From Solwaraspora sp. WMMD791 (lineage in GTDB: Bacteria > Actinomycetota > Actinomycetes > Mycobacteriales > Micromonosporaceae), in contig NZ_CP120737.1 of the NCBI RefSeq assembly GCF_029581195.1, positions 1,240,001-1,304,000 of the forward strand: a DNA stretch of 64,000 nucleotides, read 5' to 3'. This document shows positions 2,816 to 56,760 of this stretch, piece after piece. The position numbers were made by a program, and so were the translations under genes. The notes beneath the pieces were generated by a model, which ran no database searches, had not been told where the DNA came from, and was given only the letters and a program-made list of their open reading frames with translations. Position 1 is the first letter of the stretch, and each line of letters begins with the position of its first letter.

Positions 2816-3853
2816 TCAGCAAGGAAGCGCGCGGGCGACAGCGCGTCGACCGTCGAGCAGAAATTCGTAGGCACGAGGAAAATCACGCAGGGTCGCAGAG
2901 AATACACTCAGCGTTCTAAGGAGCCCGGTATGCGGAACGCCACGTGCCCGCAGCACCTCGACCGTCCACGAAACGGCATCGACGAACAGGTCACCGTCGT
3001 CCATGTAGACAGCCGCCGCGAGAAAGTCCACCAGATGACCGAGATCGGCGATCGTGGCGTCCCACTGTGCCTGCGTGTAACCGGAGGTGATCCGTTCGGA
3101 GTGGCGCAGGTCGTCCAGCGCAAGGTCGATGATCTCGGCCCGCCGCTTCACCAGCCCCGCGTACTCCTCGCCGCCGAGCCGGCCCGTCGGCGCCGCCGTC
3201 CCGGACGACACCTCGCCCGCGGCGGCGAGCAGGTCGGCGGCGGCACGGGCGTCCGGTGCCCAGGCCACCCCGAACGCACGCGCCCACCGGCCGTCCGGGC
3301 CGAAGCCACGGCCGCCGACCAGGATCGGCACGTCGGCCCGACGGCAGGCCTCGATCATCTGATGTGCCTGCGGCAGTCGCATCGGCAACGCGCAGGCCAG
3401 GGCCAGCGCCACCGCGTCGTGCCGGTGCAGGTACGCCATCAGGTGTACGGCGGGCACACTCGCACCGAGGAAGGTGACCTGCCAGCCGCGCAGTCGCAGC
3501 ACCTCGGCGACCAGCCGGGGCGGCAACGCGTGCCACTCGCCGTCCATGCAGGCGACGATGACCCGCCCCCGGCACGCTCGGGGAGCGGCCCGAGCGACGA
3601 CCGCGGTCACCACCTGTTCACTGATGTGCGTGGCCGCGTGTTCCTGGGCCACCGACCACTCGTTACGCTGCCACCACCGACCGACCTGCACCTGTGCCGG
3701 TGCGACGAGATCGAGCAGCACCGACTCCGCCGGGAGCCCGGCGTCCAGCAGGTCGTCGACCAACTCCCTGGCGCCGGACTCGTCGGCCTCGGCCAGACAG
3801 TCGAGAAACGCCGGGTACGCGGCAGTGACGTCGACGGGCGAGACAGCCGTCAC
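2816..3853 (-). CDS. CarH-type cobalamin-binding sensor without DNA-binding domain
   Basis: A 345-aa protein with the two-part cobalamin-binding fold of CarH and LitR photoreceptors. The four-helix B12-cap (about 10-90) contains the Wx9EH signature exactly (Trp61, Glu71, His72). The Rossmann part (about 95-215) has ExH (106-108, the presumed lower cobalt ligand His108), Ser132 in GAS and a GG at 180-181. The residue after the cap Trp is Gln62, where CarH has the His that binds cobalt after photolysis, so the light chemistry may differ. There is no MerR domain. Instead a helical tail (about 235-345) follows, probably a partner-binding domain. The GTG start overlaps the TAG stop of the upstream phosphatase gene by one base, indicating translational coupling. 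Confidence 0.85.
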   Translation of the reverse strand: MTAVSPVDVTAAYPAFLDCLAEADESGARELVDDLLDAGLPAESVLLDLVAPAQVQVGRWWQRNEWSVAQEHAATHISEQVVTAVVARAAPRACRGRVIVACMDGEWHALPPRLVAEVLRLRGWQVTFLGASVPAVHLMAYLHRHDAVALALACALPMRLPQAHQMIEACRRADVPILVGGRGFGPDGRWARAFGVAWAPDARAAADLLAAAGEVSSGTAAPTGRLGGEEYAGLVKRRAEIIDLALDDLRHSERITSGYTQAQWDATIADLGHLVDFLAAAVYMDDGDLFVDAVSWTVEVLRARGVPHTGLLRTLSVFSATLRDFPRAYEFLLDGRRAVARALPC

Positions 3854-5628
3854 TACCGTCCGTCCTCCGCCACCTCGGGGTCGGGAACGGCGCGCAGGTG
3901 GCGGTCCCGCTGGCGGCTCGCCGGCGGCTGCGCCCGGACCGCGAGGACCGCGATGTCGTCATGGTCGCGGCCGGCCAGCCAGTCCCCGGCCAACTGTTCG
4001 ACCCGCTGTGCCAGCGCTGGCGCTGGCATCCGATGACACCCGCGTAGCGCCGCACAGAGCCGGGCGAGGCCGTACTGCTCGGTGCCGTACCGCCCGCCGC
4101 GCGCCTCGGTCACCCCGTCGCTGTAGAGCAGGCAGGTGTCCCCCGCCGCGAGCTCCACGGTGAGCTGGCCGATCCGCGGGTCCGGCACCACTCCGATCAG
4201 CATTCCGGTCAACGGCACCGTCTCCACCGTGCCGTCACCACGCAGCACCAGCGGCGGCAGGTGCCCTCCGCCGGCCAGGGTCAGGCTCAGCCCACCGTCA
4301 CGCGTCGGGCTCGCGGTCCCCAGCACCATCGTGGCGAACCGGCCCTGGCCGTGCGCCTGGGTGGTCTCCAGCACCGACTCGTTGAGCAACCGCAGCAGCC
4401 GCCGGGGATCGGTCTCGACGTTGCGCAGCGCCTGCAGTCCCTGTCTGACCTGGCCGGTGAAGACGGCCGCGTCGACACCCTTGCCGGAGACGTCACCGAG
4501 GAAGAACAGGACGTCGCGGTCGGCGAGCCCGAAGGCACCGTAGAAGTCTCCACCGATACGCAACGACGACTGCGCCGGCCGGTACGCGGTGCCCCACTGC
4601 ACGCCGGGCACCGGATGCGGGTCGGTCGGCAACAGGCTGGCCTGCAACGTCTCGGCGATCTCCGACTGGTGCCGGTAGAGGACGGCGGCGTCGAGAGCGG
4701 AACCCGCGCGGGCGGCGAACCCGCCCAGCAGATGCAGGTCCGCCTCGTCGAAGCCGACCGCACAGCGCCGCGCGACGAGCAGGGCACCGGTCGGTCGTGC
4801 GCTGCCGGGCAACCCCACCACCCGTACGGCGGCGTCGGACGCCTGTGCCGGAGTCAGCCAGCCGAGGTCGACGATCTGCTCGGCGAGCCAGTCCACGGAT
4901 GTCGCCGCCGCACCGGCGAGTGTCTCGACGAAGGCCGCCGGCAGGTCACCGACGGCGAGCACGCCGCCGTCGACCTGCGGGTCGGCGGTGCCTTCGCTGC
5001 GTGCCCGCCACCACCGCGCCTGTCCCCGGCGTGCCGCGACGACCAGCACGGCGACGTCACCCAGCGTCGGTACGGCGAGGCGGACCACGGCCCGGGCGGC
5101 GCGATCCTCGTGGAGCGGATTACCCAGCCGTTGGCTGGCCGTCGCGAGGAACATCCAGCGGGCCCGCTCGGCGAGCAGCGCGTCGGAGCGCGCCGTGCTC
5201 TCCGTGGCGTCGTCGACGTACCACGCGGTCCGGTCCCGGCCCAGAGGCACCCGGCGGAGTCGCAGGCGCAGCCCACGATGGGTCAGCTCGCCGCCGTCGT
5301 CGCGCATCGCCGCGTCCAGCCCACCGACCCCGCTCACCGCGACGACCTGTCCGACCACGAGCTCCGGCAGCAACCGACGCGCCGTGGCGTCGATGTGTCG
5401 CACCACCGCGGTGGCGTCGCAGATCACCAGTCCTTCGCGGAAGTTGTCCATCGCGGCGGCCATCTCGAACCCGGGCCCCGCCGCGGGCGCGACAGCGGGT
5501 GCCGTGGGGCGGTCCGCGGGCGGCGCACCGGCGTCGGACGGATCGGACCCCCCGGCCACGGTCGCCGGCTCGGGTGTGGATGTCCGCCCGTCGCCCGAAT
5601 CCCAGTTCGTGACGTCGGCGGTGCTCAC
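3853..5628 (-). CDS. SpoIIE/RsbU-type PP2C serine phosphatase with PAS and GAF regions
   Basis: This protein is expected to dephosphorylate a STAS anti-anti-sigma factor in a partner-switching pathway. It has an acidic, Pro/Ala-rich N-terminus, a PAS-like segment (EGLVICDATAVVRHID), a GAF-like middle and a C-terminal PPM domain. Metal-binding motifs are present: RIGGDFY, GDVSGKGVDAA, YSDGVTEA and HDDIAVL. It is cytoplasmic, with no membrane segment. I chose GTG at 5628 because GAGGAG lies upstream (14-base spacing). A longer frame reaches GTG at 5676 but has no ribosome site. It is followed with a one-base overlap by the cobalamin sensor and lies divergent from a STAS protein, so all three probably form one signalling unit. 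Family assignment is firm; its substrate is inferred. Confidence 0.9.
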   Translation of the reverse strand: MSTADVTNWDSGDGRTSTPEPATVAGGSDPSDAGAPPADRPTAPAVAPAAGPGFEMAAAMDNFREGLVICDATAVVRHIDATARRLLPELVVGQVVAVSGVGGLDAAMRDDGGELTHRGLRLRLRRVPLGRDRTAWYVDDATESTARSDALLAERARWMFLATASQRLGNPLHEDRAARAVVRLAVPTLGDVAVLVVAARRGQARWWRARSEGTADPQVDGGVLAVGDLPAAFVETLAGAAATSVDWLAEQIVDLGWLTPAQASDAAVRVVGLPGSARPTGALLVARRCAVGFDEADLHLLGGFAARAGSALDAAVLYRHQSEIAETLQASLLPTDPHPVPGVQWGTAYRPAQSSLRIGGDFYGAFGLADRDVLFFLGDVSGKGVDAAVFTGQVRQGLQALRNVETDPRRLLRLLNESVLETTQAHGQGRFATMVLGTASPTRDGGLSLTLAGGGHLPPLVLRGDGTVETVPLTGMLIGVVPDPRIGQLTVELAAGDTCLLYSDGVTEARGGRYGTEQYGLARLCAALRGCHRMPAPALAQRVEQLAGDWLAGRDHDDIAVLAVRAQPPASRQRDRHLRAVPDPEVAEDGR

Positions 5629-5904
5629 CAGCCCAGGCCCCACTCCTCGTATCGATCGTCGACTCCGGGACGACACCCAGCGTCACTGCCCGTGCCCCAC
5701 CCTACGCGGCGGCTGGCGAAGCGCCACCCGAGCGTGCGGCCGAGCACGCTGGCGCGGACGGGTCTACCCTGTAGCTGAGCCGGGCCCGACCTGCCGCAGA
5801 TCAGACGACGGAGGCGGACACCGGCGCGAGGAGACGACGACCGGACCGCCACGTCCGGCGGCAGAACGAAACGCCACTGACGGCGCAGAAGGGGTGATTC
5901 TCCG

Positions 5905-6282
5905 GTGTGGGGTGGCGGATCGGACACCACAGCGGCCCCACTCGTCGTGACCACGGACACGAACGCGCCGCAGGACGCCGTACTACGTCTCGCCGGCGAC
6001 CTCGACTTCCAGACAGCCGCCCTGGTACACCAGCAGGTCGACCTGGCCCTCGCCGCACGACCGGCTCAGCTGGTCCTGGACCTGCGTGGGCTCACCTTCA
6101 TCGACAGTACCGGCCTCGCGGCGATCGTGTACGCCTGGCGTGTCGCCCAGGAGCAGCAGGCGACAGTACGGTTGCACGAGGTTCCTGCCTTCCTCGCCAG
6201 CGTGCTGGACATCACCGGCGTCGGTGAGCTGCTGGCGCGGCCGCTGCCCGAGGCGGCCGACCCGGATGCCAGCACGGCGTGA
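5905..6282 (+). CDS. STAS-domain anti-anti-sigma factor
   Basis: A 125-aa single-domain STAS protein of the SpoIIAA/RsbV type. The hallmark phosphorylation loop is present as FIDSTGLAAI around residues 70-79, with Ser72 the likely phosphoacceptor, preceded by the conserved strand QLVLDLRGL. When dephosphorylated, such proteins bind an anti-sigma kinase and free a sigma factor. The start is GTG at 5905 behind AGAAGGGG. It is divergent from the PP2C phosphatase gene, sharing a roughly 275-base promoter region, which makes it the natural substrate candidate. No anti-sigma kinase or sigma gene is seen in the window, so the regulated sigma factor is unknown. Confidence 0.9.
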   Translation: MWGGGSDTTAAPLVVTTDTNAPQDAVLRLAGDLDFQTAALVHQQVDLALAARPAQLVLDLRGLTFIDSTGLAAIVYAWRVAQEQQATVRLHEVPAFLASVLDITGVGELLARPLPEAADPDASTA

Positions 6283-37504: not shown

Positions 37505-37665
37505 GTAGCCAGCTGCGGCGGCACGTGGAGGAAGCCGGTGTGATTCCGGCGCGGTCCCGCCACTGTCACCGGGGAGCGGACCCCACCGACGGCCACGGCC
37601 CCGATCCACGGGGCGGGAAGGCCGGGGCGAGCCTCGATCCGGGAGCCAGGAGACTCCGGTCGCCG
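37505..37665 (+). promoter_or_regulatory. Cobalamin riboswitch upstream of cobN
   Basis: This has the conserved parts of the cobalamin aptamer in the right order: GGAAGCCGGTGTGATTCCGG, CCCGCCACTGTCACCGGGG, GCGGGAAGGC, and the B12 box AGCCAGGAGAC at 37644-37654. It ends about 48 bases before cobN. Adenosylcobalamin binding should lower cobN expression, probably by masking the ribosome site. Confidence 0.95.
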
Positions 37666-52237: not shown

Positions 52238-53632
52238 TCACCGACGGCGCGCGGCGGCGACCAGCCGGGCCGCGATCTGCGGCCGCGCCGCCCAGTGCAG
52301 ATGCAGGTACGACGCGTGCACCCCGGCGGCCACGAAACCCTCCGGCGCGCCCCCACGCCATCCCCACGCCGCCGTCACGCCGGCTCGCGGCGTCACCTCG
52401 GTTCGGTGGAACTCGTGTCCGGTCAGCCGGCTGCCGACCGGCACCGCGACGTTGTCGGTCAACGCCACCGCGTCGCGGTAGCCGAGGGTCAGCCGGGGCG
52501 TCATCCGGGCGTCCGCCGGCAGCACCCCGCACATCGGAGCACCATCGAGGGTGCGGCACAACCACAGCAGACCGGCACATTCGGCGACGACCGGTGCTCC
52601 GCTGGCGGCGACCGCCGCCACCTGCGAGCGCAACCCGGCGTTGGCGGTCAGCTCACCGGCGTACACCTCGGGGAAGCCACCGCCGACGACCAGCGCCGCC
52701 GTGCCGGCGGGCAGTCGCTCGTCGCGGACCGGATCGACGGTACGCACCTCGGCGCCGGCCGCTGTCAGCAGCTCCACGGTCTCCGGGTAGCCGAAGCTGA
52801 ACGCCGGGCCGGCGGCGACCGCGACGACCGGCCGGTGACCGGCCGGGACCGGCTGCCCGCCGGCACCCGACCCGGCACCACCGTCGGGGTCGGCGACACG
52901 GACGGCCGCTGTCGGGGACCATACGTCGGACGCCAGCATGGGTGCGCGGCGCGCCACCGCCGCCACGGCGTCCAGGTCCACCGACGCGGCGACCAGTGCC
53001 GCCAACGCCTCGACCGAGGCGCGCGCCTCGACGGTGCGTTCGACCGCCGGCACCAGACCCAGGTGCCGCGACGGGGTGTCGACCGACGGCTGTCGACGCA
53101 GCACCCCGAGCACCGGGGTGCCGACCTCCTCACAGGCGTCCCGCAGGACCTGCGCGTGCCGGTCGGAGCCGACCCGGTTGAGGATCACCCCGGCGATGTG
53201 GACCTGACCGAACGACCGGAAGCCGTGCACCAGGGCGGCCACCGACCGGCTCTGCCCGGCCGCGTCGACGACCAGCAGCACGGGCGCGGCCAGCAGCGCG
53301 GCGACGTGCGCGGTGGAGCCGACGTCACCGGCGCCCACCCGGCCGTCGTAGAGGCCCATCACGCCTTCGATCACGGCCAGGTCGACGCCGGCGGCACCAT
53401 GGGCGAACAACGGCGCGACGAGGTCCTCGCCGACCAGCACCGGATCCAGGTTGCGGCCCGGCCGACCGGCGGCGAGCGCGTGGTAGCCGGGATCGATGTA
53501 GTCCGGGCCGACCTTGAACCCGGCGACCCGGACCCCGCGGGCGGCGAAGGCGGCGAGCAGCCCCGTGGCCACCGTCGTCTTGCCGTGGCCGGATCCGGGG
53601 GCGGCGATCACCACCCGGGGTACGGCTACCAC
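52238..53632 (-). CDS. cobB: CobB, (hydrogeno)byrinate a,c-diamide synthase
   Basis: A 464-aa glutamine amidotransferase that amidates the a and c acetates using ATP. The N-terminal P-loop is APGSGHGKTTVATGL, followed by FKVGPDYIDPGYH and IEGVMGLYDG. The C-terminal GATase domain has the nucleophile Cys in AECAGLLWLC and a His in GHEFHRTEV. GTG 53632 overlaps the end of cobO by seven bases. It is last in the chelatase-cobO-cobB operon. Confidence 0.95.
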   Translation of the reverse strand: MVAVPRVVIAAPGSGHGKTTVATGLLAAFAARGVRVAGFKVGPDYIDPGYHALAAGRPGRNLDPVLVGEDLVAPLFAHGAAGVDLAVIEGVMGLYDGRVGAGDVGSTAHVAALLAAPVLLVVDAAGQSRSVAALVHGFRSFGQVHIAGVILNRVGSDRHAQVLRDACEEVGTPVLGVLRRQPSVDTPSRHLGLVPAVERTVEARASVEALAALVAASVDLDAVAAVARRAPMLASDVWSPTAAVRVADPDGGAGSGAGGQPVPAGHRPVVAVAAGPAFSFGYPETVELLTAAGAEVRTVDPVRDERLPAGTAALVVGGGFPEVYAGELTANAGLRSQVAAVAASGAPVVAECAGLLWLCRTLDGAPMCGVLPADARMTPRLTLGYRDAVALTDNVAVPVGSRLTGHEFHRTEVTPRAGVTAAWGWRGGAPEGFVAAGVHASYLHLHWAARPQIAARLVAAARRR

Positions 53633-54228
53633 TCGATGCCCTGCTGGCCCTTGCGCCCGGCGTCCATCGGATGCTTGACCTTGGTCATCTCGGTCACCAG
53701 GTCGGCGAGGTCGATCAGCTCCGGTGCGGCGTTGCGCCCGGTGATCACCACATGCTGGCTGCCCGGCCGCTCCCGCAGCACCGACACCACCTCGGCGACG
53801 TCGATCCACCCCCAGGTCATCGGATAGGTGAACTCGTCCAGCACGTAGAACCGGTACGCCTCGGCGGCCAGGTCCCGACGGATCTGCGCCCAGCCCTCGG
53901 CGGCCTCGGCGGCGTGGTCGCGCTCCGCGCCGGGGCGCTGGATCCAGGACCAGCCCTCCCCCATCTTGTGCCAGGTCACCGGTGCCCCACGGCCCGACTC
54001 ACCGAGGGTACGCAGGGCCGCCTCCTCGCCTACCTTCCACTTCGGAGACTTGACGAACTGGTAGACGACCACCGGCCAGCCGGCCGACCAGGCCCGCAGC
54101 GCCATGCCGAACGCCGCCGTCGACTTGCCCTTACCTGGCCCGGTGTGCACCGCAAGCACCGGCTGGCGACGCCGGGCCCGGGTGGTCAGCCCGTCGTCGG
54201 GGACATGTTCCGGTCTCCCCTGTGGCAT
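53626..54228 (-). CDS. cobO: CobO, corrinoid adenosyltransferase
   Basis: A 200-aa CobA/CobO-type ATP:cob(I)alamin adenosyltransferase. P-loop VHTGPGKGKSTAAFGMALRA near residue 28, then VVYQFVKSPKWKVGE, YRFYVLDEFTYPMTWGW and VVITGRNAAPELIDLADLVTEM. It adds the upper adenosyl ligand, the form bound by CarH-type sensors and by the riboswitches. The ATG shares one base with the stop of the chelatase gene (TGATG). Confidence 0.96.
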   Translation of the reverse strand: MPQGRPEHVPDDGLTTRARRRQPVLAVHTGPGKGKSTAAFGMALRAWSAGWPVVVYQFVKSPKWKVGEEAALRTLGESGRGAPVTWHKMGEGWSWIQRPGAERDHAAEAAEGWAQIRRDLAAEAYRFYVLDEFTYPMTWGWIDVAEVVSVLRERPGSQHVVITGRNAAPELIDLADLVTEMTKVKHPMDAGRKGQQGIEW

Positions 54229-56231
54229 CAGGCAGCCCTCCGCCGGTCGTGGACACCCGGACCCGTCGCCGACAACGCGGCCAGCGGCAGCCACTGTGCG
54301 GTGAAGCCGGCGGCGAGCCGGCGCGCCAGCCCGAGCCGCACCGGGCCGGCCTCGCAGTCGAGCACCACCATCGGGGTGCCGGCGAGCAACGGCGCCAGCG
54401 TCATCGGGTCCGGGCCGCTGGTCGCCCGCCCGTCGGTGACCAGCAGGACCAGCGGCCGGCGACGCGGATCCCGGCGGCGCTCGGCGGTGACGGTGGCCGC
54501 GGCGACGCGCAACCCGGCGGCGATCGGGGTACGCCCCCCGGTGCGCAGCTGCGCCAACCGGGTGACGGCGACCCCGTGGCTGCTGGTCGGCGGCAGGACC
54601 AGGTCGGCACCGGCGCCCCGGAAGGTGATCATCCCGACCCGGTCGCGCCGGTGGTACGCGTCGCGCAGCAACGACAGCACGGCGGTCTTGACCACGCTCA
54701 TCCGGTGCCGTGCCGCCATCGAACCCGAGGCGTCGACCACGAACAGGATCAGGTTCGCCTCCGTGCCGACGAAGCGGGCCTGACGCAGGTCGGCGGAGAC
54801 GATCCGCCGGCCACCACGCGACGCGGTGGCGCGTACCGTCGCCGGCAGATGCACGGCCGATACCCGCCCGGTCGGTGCCGTGGCGCCCACCACCCTGCCC
54901 CGGTCCGCGTGGGCGGCCGACCGCCGGCCGGGCGTGCCGCCATCGCCGAGTCCGGGCAGCCGCAGCGTCCGGGGCCGGTACGCCGGACCGGCCGCCGCCG
55001 GCGCCGGACCGGCCTCCGCCGAACCGTCCGGGCCGGTAGCCGAACCACCGGCGCTGTCGTCGTCGCGGCGGGCACCCTCCTGACCGTCGCGGCGCTGACC
55101 GTCACGGCCGTCACCGCGGCCGTCGCCCGCCTGCGGTGGAGGTCCGTCCGCGCTGGTCGGCGGCCTACCGTCCGGCGGTGCGGGAGGTCCCGGGGGCGGT
55201 GCGGGGTCCGGGTCGTCGTCGGGACACTCGTCACGCAACACCTCGTCGAGACGCTGTGCGTCGGCACCGGGCGGATCCAGCGGATCCCGTCGCCGCCGGT
55301 GCGGCAGGGCCAGCCGGGCGGCGTCGGCGACCTCCGCGGCCGTGACCGCCGGCAGGCCACGCCAGGCGGCCAGGGCCACGGCGGCACGGGCCATCACGAT
55401 GTCCGCCCGCAGCCCGTCCACCTGGTACGCGAGGCAGATCCGGGCGATCCGGTCGATCTCGGCGTCCGGTAGGGTCACCGCCGGCAGGGCGGCCCGTGCC
55501 GCGCGTACCCGTCGTGCGAGTTGATCGTCGGCGGACCGCCAGTGGGCCGCGAAGGCCGCCGGGTCGGCCTCGTAGGCCAGCCGGCGGCGGACCACCTCGG
55601 CCCGGTCGGCCACCTCGGTCGGCGCGGTCACCGACACGACCAGGCCGAAGCGGTCCAGCAGCTGCGGACGCGGCTCCCCCTCCTCCGGGTTCATCGTGCC
55701 GACCAGCAGGAACCGGGCGGCGTGGCTGACCGACACCCCGTCGCGTTCGACGTGTGCGCGGCCCATCGCCGCCGCGTCCAGCAGCAGGTCGACCAGGTGG
55801 TCCGGCAGCAGGTTGACCTCGTCGACATAGAGCAGGCCACGGTGGGCGGCGGCGAGCAGTCCCGGCTCGTACGCCTTCACCCCGGCGCTGAGCACCCGCT
55901 GGATGTCCAAGGTCCCGACCACCCGGTCCTCGGTGGCCCCGACCGGCAACTCGACCAGGGCCGCCGGCCCGCCCCGGGCGGTGATCGGCGCGGTGTGCGG
56001 GCCGTCCGGGCAGGTCGGGTCGACGGCGATCGGATCGCAGCCGAACCGGCAGCCGGCGACCCGGTCGACCGGCGGCAGCAGGCCGGCCAGGGCCCGGACC
56101 ATCGTCGACTTCGCGGTGCCCTTCTCGCCACGGATCAGCACCCCGCCGATACCGGGGTGCGCCGCCGCCAGCAGCAGGGCCTGCCGCAACTCGGGCAGGC
56201 CCACGATGGCGGTGAACGGGTACGCCGTCAT
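54228..56231 (-). CDS. ChlI/ChlD-type (BchI-BchD fusion) chelatase ATPase subunit
   Basis: A 667-aa fusion of a MoxR/ChlI-like AAA+ ATPase (Walker A GEKGTAKSTMV near 35, Walker B GLLYVDEVNLL, sensor LVGTMNPEEGEPRPQLLDRFG) and a C-terminal VWA domain with MIDAS FVVDASGSMAARHRMS. An acidic and Pro/Gly-rich linker (about 340-470) separates them. In actinobacteria this protein takes the place of CobS/CobT and powers cobalt insertion together with CobN. ATG 56231 has a weak ribosome site, which may be the target of the riboswitch upstream. It is first in the operon with cobO and cobB. Confidence 0.92.
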   Translation of the reverse strand: MTAYPFTAIVGLPELRQALLLAAAHPGIGGVLIRGEKGTAKSTMVRALAGLLPPVDRVAGCRFGCDPIAVDPTCPDGPHTAPITARGGPAALVELPVGATEDRVVGTLDIQRVLSAGVKAYEPGLLAAAHRGLLYVDEVNLLPDHLVDLLLDAAAMGRAHVERDGVSVSHAARFLLVGTMNPEEGEPRPQLLDRFGLVVSVTAPTEVADRAEVVRRRLAYEADPAAFAAHWRSADDQLARRVRAARAALPAVTLPDAEIDRIARICLAYQVDGLRADIVMARAAVALAAWRGLPAVTAAEVADAARLALPHRRRRDPLDPPGADAQRLDEVLRDECPDDDPDPAPPPGPPAPPDGRPPTSADGPPPQAGDGRGDGRDGQRRDGQEGARRDDDSAGGSATGPDGSAEAGPAPAAAGPAYRPRTLRLPGLGDGGTPGRRSAAHADRGRVVGATAPTGRVSAVHLPATVRATASRGGRRIVSADLRQARFVGTEANLILFVVDASGSMAARHRMSVVKTAVLSLLRDAYHRRDRVGMITFRGAGADLVLPPTSSHGVAVTRLAQLRTGGRTPIAAGLRVAAATVTAERRRDPRRRPLVLLVTDGRATSGPDPMTLAPLLAGTPMVVLDCEAGPVRLGLARRLAAGFTAQWLPLAALSATGPGVHDRRRAA

Positions 56232-56299: not shown

Positions 56300-56460
56300 A
56301 GGGAGCGGCCGGAGTCTCCTGGCTGCCGGATCGACACCACGTCCCGAGCCTTCCCGCCGTCGTGGCAGTGGCTGTCTCATGGGGACGTGACTCCCCGGTC
56401 ACAGTGGCGGGACCGCCCCGGATTCGCACCGGGTTCCTCCGCGTACCGCTCGTGCCGGCC
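56300..56460 (-). promoter_or_regulatory. Cobalamin riboswitch upstream of the chelatase-cobO-cobB operon
   Basis: Read leftward it has GGAACCCGGTGCGAATCCGG, CCCGCCACTGTGACCGGGG, GGCGGGAAGGC and the B12 box GCAGCCAGGAGACTCC (56325-56311 approximately). The aptamer ends about 70 bases before ATG 56231. Confidence 0.95.
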
Positions 56461-56528: not shown

Positions 56529-56558
56529 TTGTCCGGCCGGGCGAACCGGCGGTACGCT
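56529..56558 (+). promoter_or_regulatory. Likely promoter of the cbtB riboswitch transcript
   Basis: TTGTCC (56529-56534) and TACGCT (56553-56558) are 18 bases apart and would start transcription at about 56565, just before the aptamer. Confidence 0.5.
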
Positions 56559-56561
56559 GCG

Positions 56562-56720
56562 CGAGCCACGGTGTTCGGGAAGCCGGTGTGATTCCGGCGT
56601 GGTCCTCGCCACTGTGACCGGGGAGTGTCCGTTCCACCACGCCACTGGGCCGACGACAACGGCTTGGGAAGGCGGGACGGCCGCGACGATCCGGGAGCCA
56701 GGAGACCGGCCGTGGCACGC
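56562..56720 (+). promoter_or_regulatory. Cobalamin riboswitch upstream of cbtB-cbtA
   Basis: Conserved blocks in order: GGGAAGCCGGTGTGATTCCGG is split at 56577-56597, then CGCCACTGTGACCGGGGAG, GCCACTGG, TTGGGAAGGC and the B12 box GAGCCAGGAGACCGGCC (56695-56711). The aptamer ends about 45 bases before ATG 56761. Confidence 0.95.
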
Positions 56721-56760
56721 ACCGCATCGCCACGAGGCATGGACGAGAGGATCACCTGGC

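Follow-up and report, generated by a model that had tools for sequence, protein, structure and literature searches.

A photocobilin gene overlapping a SpoIIE-family phosphatase gene: a candidate light switch in Solwaraspora and other actinomycetes

What does a cobalamin-binding sensor control when it carries no DNA-binding domain of its own? The question is raised by a locus in a stretch of 64,000 nucleotides of Solwaraspora sp. WMMD791 (contig NZ_CP120737.1, positions 1,240,001 to 1,304,000; hereafter the window, in whose numbering positions are given), where the gene for such a sensor overlaps by one base the gene of a SpoIIE-family PP2C phosphatase, with a divergent STAS gene beside the pair (Table 1). 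The original prediction described a CarH-type B12 photoreceptor wired to the phosphatase, which would act through it to free a sigma factor. Judged by its sequence, the sensor is instead a well-supported new member of the photocobilins, of the standalone kind. We put at about 0.7 the probability that the locus is a two-protein light switch, in which the photocobilin acts on its PAS-GAF-PP2C partner and thereby on a STAS protein and a sigma factor.

Identity of the sensor

The photocobilin family was described in 2024 (PMC10979010). Its standalone representative SasPcob, from Saccharothrix syringae (PDB 8J2W/8J2X), binds adenosylcobalamin (AdoCbl) and biliverdin (BV), using W61, E71, H72 and H108 for AdoCbl, with D270 and W296 located at biliverdin; the W61/E71/H72 cap surrounds the adenosyl group (PMC10979010). 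SasPcob is also the closest solved relative of the window sensor (phmmer E 2e-96 for 8j2x and 3e-96 for 8j2w), with 53–54% identity over nearly the full length. Matches to AbDPcob (8j2y, E 5e-42) and to CarH chains (E ~1e-9) are more distant. The alignment to 8j2x covers residues 13–342 and so runs across the globin-like C-terminal domain. An AlphaFold2 model of the sensor (19 sequences, mean pLDDT 76.6) makes this domain all-helical, and the top Foldseek matches of the whole model are again 8j2w and 8j2x (E 1.8e-22). Because residues ~229–342 are aligned and modelled like SasPcob, they are assigned as a bilin-binding globin domain; the ‘helical tail’ of the original prediction is in fact this domain.

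The sensor has two Pfam domains, B12-binding_2 (residues 16–84) and B12-binding (residues 96–198), and the Pfam search found no DNA-binding or helix-turn-helix (HTH) domain. The motifs noted earlier, W61-x9-E71-H72, the ExH motif (E106-W107-H108) and a glutamine at residue 62, were all confirmed, as was the absence of a DNA-binding domain. Residues W61, Q62, E71, H72, H108, H137, D270 and W296 are identical in the sensor and SasPcob; these include Asp270 and Trp296 of the biliverdin pocket and His137, which the neighbouring chain contributes in SasPcob. In an alignment of 178 relatives (at least 880 nt long, without internal stop), the conserved residues are W61 (177 sequences), E71 (178), H72 (176), H108 (176), W296 (177) and D270 (152), and no sequence has a histidine at position 62.

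Assignment to CarH was rejected. The sensor reaches 50.9 bits with the NCBIfam CarH model, whose cut-off is 400, has no HTH and carries Gln62 in place of the upper-ligand histidine. It shares with CarH and LitR the AdoCbl module with W-x9-EH and ExH, but differs from them in lacking a DNA-binding domain and the histidine at the bis-His position, and in having an additional globin domain. Gln62 had been taken to suggest sensing of the AdoCbl level or different photochemistry; this argument is weak, as photoactive SasPcob also has Gln62, responds to green light, changes from a dark dimer to a light monomer and has a water- or hydroxide-ligated light state without bis-His ligation (PMC10979010). 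Since SasPcob and the aligned relatives all lack His62, the point holds for the whole sampled photocobilin family, and Gln62 was discarded as evidence against light sensing.

The likeness to SasPcob comprises homology over residues 13–342, the residues that contact AdoCbl and BV, Gln62 among them, and predicted SpoIIE and STAS partners. The window differs from it in genus, in having a divergent STAS gene and not the downstream same-strand one of 102 of 187 relatives' sequences, and in the apparently unrelated GGDEF-EAL gene that follows the sensor. With AbDPcob the sensor shares the cobalamin-binding and globin domains, but AbDPcob is fused to a cyclase and has a histidine for the BV-binding aspartate (PMC10979010), whereas the window has D270 and a separate PP2C gene.

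The phosphatase and its overlap with the sensor gene

The stop codon TAG of the phosphatase gene (3855–3853) and the GTG start codon of the sensor gene (3853–3851) share one G, and a GGAGG lies ~10 nt upstream of the start; the one-base overlap with a SpoIIE-type phosphatase gene is as originally described. The SpoIIE domain scores 143.8 bits against a Pfam cut-off of 25, and two further Pfam matches are sub-threshold. Its GGDF, GDV, SDG and DD motifs, which we take to form the PP2C metal site, are invariant across 40 aligned sequences. Conservation among relatives begins at about L16/V17 of the open reading frame (ORF) and the alignment of congeners concurs, so translation probably starts at an internal GTG near 5628 rather than at 5676.

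The AlphaFold2 model of PP2C (mean pLDDT 73.3, pTM 0.52) suggests PAS-like and GAF-like domains connected by a long helix to the catalytic domain. The latter matches the phosphatase domains of RssB, SiaA, SpoIIE and Rv1364c in Foldseek, and phytochrome photosensory modules are also among the matches, in support of the GAF-like reading. A motif in the linker between PAS and GAF recurs in just 27 of 168 photocobilin-linked PP2Cs. A sigma-70 promoter scan returned nothing upstream of the pair and did not detect the TAGGGT block, a weak candidate for a −10 element.

Conservation of the pair

The neighbourhood survey of homologues, for which the original prediction had named absence of the pairing as the refuting outcome, covered 63 public-genome loci found through exact peptide patterns, nearly all of them from Micromonospora, together with the top hits from two draws of genomes, 200 from the family and 394 from the class. 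Against best-hit bias, 75 stretches lower in these match lists were added; 5 stretches and 4 congeners were taken with longer flanks. The window locus, the SpoIIE, oxygenase and kinase loci of its own genome, matches below 60 bits and identical sequences were removed, leaving 187 distinct photocobilin hit sequences in 181 loci, among them tandem second copies and 9 fragments of broken or truncated genes. Neighbours were clustered on a custom GC3 gene caller, which small genes may escape.

Of the 187 photocobilin sequences, 176 have a SpoIIE gene upstream on the same strand, across several families and with paralogous cassettes included. The wiring of a B12-type photoreceptor to a PP2C is thus supported, as the great majority of the sampled actinomycete relatives have the pairing. 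In 169 pairs the PP2C stop was compared with a possible sensor start: 132 have a 4-nt overlap and 14 a 1-nt overlap (146/169 in total), a count that took the start codon nearest the PP2C stop and therefore favours overlaps. With 10 SpoIIE matches across the 6.93 Mb of the window genome, chance adjacency would be rare, and the photocobilin–PP2C arrangement is not due to chance. None of the loci in this survey has a photocobilin–SpoIIE fusion in one reading frame.

The pair is also found on plasmids, of which three were examined among six records with a long photocobilin match. The annotation of a Streptomyces microflavus plasmid lists PP2C, a cobalamin-dependent protein and STAS with 4-nt overlaps, and an S. 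fungicidicus plasmid has a GAF-SpoIIE phosphatase followed by a cobalamin-dependent protein.

The photocobilin-linked phosphatases form a group apart from the sampled unlinked SpoIIE domains. In the SpoIIE tree, 80 linked entries (75 representatives and 5 found again) split completely from 56 unlinked entries; the support of this exact edge is low (0.093), and that of an edge with 77 of the 80 linked entries is 0.956. The unlinked entries represent 30 loci out of 90 matches, in the window genome, in its genus and in four further genomes, and both sets contain a few genes twice. Photocobilin and PP2C distances among the 75 representatives correlate with r = 0.87, and 0 of 999 permutations was as high (Mantel test, with shared species history uncorrected). 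In Micromonospora-family genomes, paralogous cassettes have their own PP2C each.

Within the genus, the two genes are present and absent together. The photocobilin was matched in six of seven genomes (the window genome included; in one of them in pieces) and the PP2C ortholog (at least 75% identity) in the same six. The seventh, G060, has no photocobilin match and distant PP2C matches of at most 35%. At the corresponding site of G060, the GGDEF-EAL and glycosyltransferase genes are ~0.5 kb apart, without PP2C, sensor or STAS, compared with a spacing of ~3.9 kb in the window. In the congener G114 (L216), the photocobilin is in pieces and the upstream PP2C has no stop within its frame, a possible natural loss of the sensor unless it reflects sequencing error.

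The photocobilin family and a hint at its partners were known already: PMC10979010 calls the function of standalone photocobilins less clear and, in one sentence, gives SpoIIE and STAS as predicted partners of SasPcob. It was the one paper found by the literature search, as far as the retrieved texts extend, to link a photocobilin with SpoIIE. What is added here is how deeply the pairing is conserved, together with the distinct PP2C group and the empty site; the supplement of PMC10979010 may show part of this.

The STAS gene

The divergent STAS protein predicted beside the pair is borne out. Its ORF scores 63.2 against a cut-off of 53.45 for TIGR00377 (the NCBIfam anti-anti-sigma model) and keeps D-Ser68-T-G. 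Among the relatives, a same-strand STAS gene lies downstream in 102 of 187 sequences and a divergent one upstream in 74, and STAS is linked in some orientation in 132; these counts are lower bounds, as the upstream flank is shorter than 2.6 kb in 38 of the 187 rows. Of 219 linked STAS matches, 194 have a DS(S/T/A)G phosphosite, 3 have DGAG and 22 do not fit, the 8 listed ones of the latter being DSMG or DSVG.

In many Micromonospora loci (L002–L064, for example L027), a single-domain response regulator is encoded ~0.5 kb past the downstream STAS gene. This regulator, placed after PP2C, photocobilin and STAS, is reminiscent of the phytochrome-linked Rcp1 regulators.

Proposed mechanism

PP2C is very probably what the photocobilin controls, because the relatives keep the pair so consistently together. 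Control of the co-encoded phosphatase is also the likeliest output because a photocobilin has been shown to regulate an enzyme to which it is not fused: a cyclase is activated in trans by SasPcob that carries AdoCbl and BV and is light-adapted (PMC10979010).

The steps from the photochemistry of the sensor, through its contact with PP2C and the sign of control, to the substrate and the sigma factor are those we infer. The standalone photocobilin, an AdoCbl sensor with a bilin-binding globin, would act on PP2C by protein–protein contact, the two proteins being probably co-translated. By analogy with SasPcob, the AdoCbl-bound sensor would form a head-to-tail dimer in the dark, and green light (red light, if biliverdin is bound) would break the Co–C bond to yield a monomer without bis-His ligation. 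The light state would alter PP2C activity, most likely upwards, as light activates the cyclase fused to AbDPcob (PMC10979010). PP2C would in turn dephosphorylate a STAS anti-anti-sigma protein, either that encoded at 5905–6282 or another of the genome, which would then bind an RsbW-type kinase so that a sigma factor is freed.

The last steps follow the RsbU/SpoIIE pathways, in which, according to PMC11418112, the phosphatase dephosphorylates a STAS protein, the STAS protein binds the kinase and the sigma factor is freed. A SpoIIE-family PP2C and a DSTG STAS protein are common to the window and to RsbU/SpoIIE–RsbV/SpoIIAA partner switching; there the phosphatase activator is RsbT (PMC11418112), whereas a co-encoded photoreceptor is proposed here.

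A biliverdin cofactor is plausible for the window sensor, as the window genome has one heme oxygenase. Of the 200 genomes of the family draw, 104 have a photocobilin (E ≤ 1e-40); PF01126 heme oxygenase was matched in 73 of these and in 56 of the 96 others, a difference that is not significant (Fisher p 0.10).

For the Actinomycetes at large, we lean towards the view that standalone photocobilins are dedicated trans regulators of one co-evolving PP2C subfamily, usually forming an overlapping two-gene switch that would be acquired or lost whole and would drive STAS partner switching, with B12 photochemistry reaching transcription via a phosphatase and not via DNA binding. With the overlapping pair, the distinct PP2C group and the empty site, the SpoIIE/STAS prediction becomes specific and names a definite phosphatase for each sensor. 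If the proposal is correct, many actinomycetes place signalling of the stress type under B12-based (possibly also bilin-based) light sensing, and the pair could be used as a light-controlled phosphatase tool.

Alternative inputs and outputs

Several observations weigh against the proposed switch or parts of it. Eleven of the 187 photocobilin sequences have no SpoIIE gene upstream, all of them with photocobilin profile scores under 430 bits; three have a GGDEF gene there instead, and one (L153) covers just 63 nt upstream. A plasmid of Streptomyces sp. SGAir0924 (L329) carries a photocobilin without PP2C, shortly before gas-vesicle genes. Outside the class, none of 11 photocobilin-like loci of a phylum draw has a SpoIIE neighbour within flanks of at most 1.5 kb, and two have GGDEF upstream. 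The sign of control is uncertain, as light acted on a cyclase in the opposite direction when SasPcob carried AdoCbl alone (PMC10979010). No kinase or sigma-factor gene was identified as the output in a search that was confined to HATPase_c_2, a general ATPase fold with 36 matches genome-wide, and in which sigma factors were not searched for. The literature searched, as far as its available text goes, contains no biochemistry on this photocobilin or on any photocobilin–PP2C pair. Biliverdin use is doubtful family-wide, as 31 of the 104 photocobilin genomes have no PF01126 match. These gaps in heme oxygenase would also suit a sensor that reads AdoCbl (B12) status and not light, with the change between holo-dimer and apo-protein setting phosphatase activity. 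In the same direction point the lowered cyclase activity of AbDPcob on AdoCbl binding alone, relative to the apo form (PMC10979010), the abundance of cob genes in the window, together with its three cobalamin riboswitches, and an adenosylcobinamide amidohydrolase gene directly upstream of the pair on one Streptomyces plasmid (the S. fungicidicus record). Such a role is nevertheless unlikely: the sensor keeps the chromophore residues of photoactive SasPcob, including the adenosyl cap, and the cob genes of the window are ~27–54 kb away.

On the output side, one doubt concerns the substrate. Among the six genomes of the genus that carry the pair, the window genome being one, three have the linked STAS ortholog and three do not, so the adjacent STAS protein need not be the substrate. 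The original idea of STAS as the phosphatase partner is therefore retained in part: the protein encoded at 5905–6282 is a plausible direct substrate of PP2C and an optional partner. The output may conceivably lie elsewhere, in another STAS protein or a non-sigma target, with the adjacent STAS unrelated or an older partner that is being lost; the 8 STAS matches of the window genome would accommodate this, as would the 44 of 176 SpoIIE-linked sequences that have no linked STAS, a count subject to the same short upstream flanks. We hold this as a tentative alternative, since linked STAS genes are frequent (132/187) and mostly keep the phosphosite (194/219). Far less credible is control, instead or in addition, of the downstream GGDEF-EAL protein in this genus, after the manner of the cyclase-fused photocobilins. 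A same-strand GGDEF gene does follow in the window genome, L065–L068 and L216, and both AbDPcob, on its own cyclase, and holo SasPcob, in trans, provide precedents (PMC10979010). The gap in the window is, however, ~280 nt, relatives' loci L002–L064 have no homologue at E ≤ 1e-3, and a 79%-identical ortholog is still in place in G060, where sensor and PP2C are both missing; because it is retained there without the pair, the GGDEF-EAL gene was rejected as a unit member and is treated as a neighbour. PP2C thus remains the output we propose for the photocobilin.

Features of the window and further observations

Table 1. Positions of the features discussed, in window numbering
Feature	Position	Strand	Basis and remarks
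Photocobilin-type photoreceptor gene	2816–3853	minus	345 aa; ORF, Pfam, phmmer, AlphaFold2, Foldseek
AdoCbl-binding module (four-helix bundle with W61/E71/H72; Rossmann part with E106-x-H108)	3224–3817	minus	PF02607 and PF02310; SasPcob numbering
C-terminal globin-like bilin-binding domain (residues ~229–345; D270, W296)	2819–3169	minus	8j2x alignment, AlphaFold2, Foldseek
SpoIIE-family PP2C phosphatase gene	ORF 3853–5676, likely 3853–5628 (GTG near 5628)	minus	Pfam SpoIIE E 8e-42, conservation
PAS-like domain of PP2C (residues 72–156)	5209–5463	minus	AlphaFold2 fold reading; no Pfam match
GAF-like domain of PP2C (residues 190–304)	4765–5109	minus	AlphaFold2 fold reading; sub-threshold Pfam GAF_3 E 0.11
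Long helix from GAF to PP2C (residues 311–348)	4633–4746	minus	AlphaFold2
Catalytic PP2C/SpoIIE domain (residues 359–582)	3931–4602	minus	Pfam, own-genome search, Foldseek
TAG/GTG one-base stop–start overlap, PP2C/photocobilin	3851–3855	minus	Sequence
TAGGGT, possible −10 element of the pair (weak)	5699–5704	minus	Block conserved with two congeners (3-sequence alignment)
Divergent STAS anti-anti-sigma-like gene, DSTG site (Ser68), optional partner	5905–6282	plus	Pfam, TIGR00377
GGDEF-EAL gene, neighbour judged outside the unit	1–2532	minus, downstream	Pfam; retained in G060
cobO	53626–54294	minus	
Cobalamin riboswitch	37529–37655	plus	Rfam RF00174 (73–100 bits for the three)
Cobalamin riboswitch	56312–56439	minus	Rfam RF00174
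Cobalamin riboswitch	56552–56728	plus	Rfam RF00174

The window contains cobO and many other cob genes, as the original prediction had it. The genes near the three cobalamin riboswitches are cobG, cobN, cobO, a CobB/CobQ-like gene and CbtA. Among the 31 photocobilin genomes without a PF01126 match, 23 belong to a single genus, g4.

Two variants of the cassette were seen among the relatives. At L098/L173 and at L103/L174, one PP2C gene precedes a tandem of two photocobilin genes, with STAS behind them, and the tandem possibly encodes a heterodimeric sensor. In L198–L200, L202, L204–L208 and L212, a further SpoIIE-domain protein is encoded ~1.2–1.4 kb downstream of the photocobilin, constituting a second cassette type; that of L198 matches Pfam SpoIIE with an E value of 1.1e-36.

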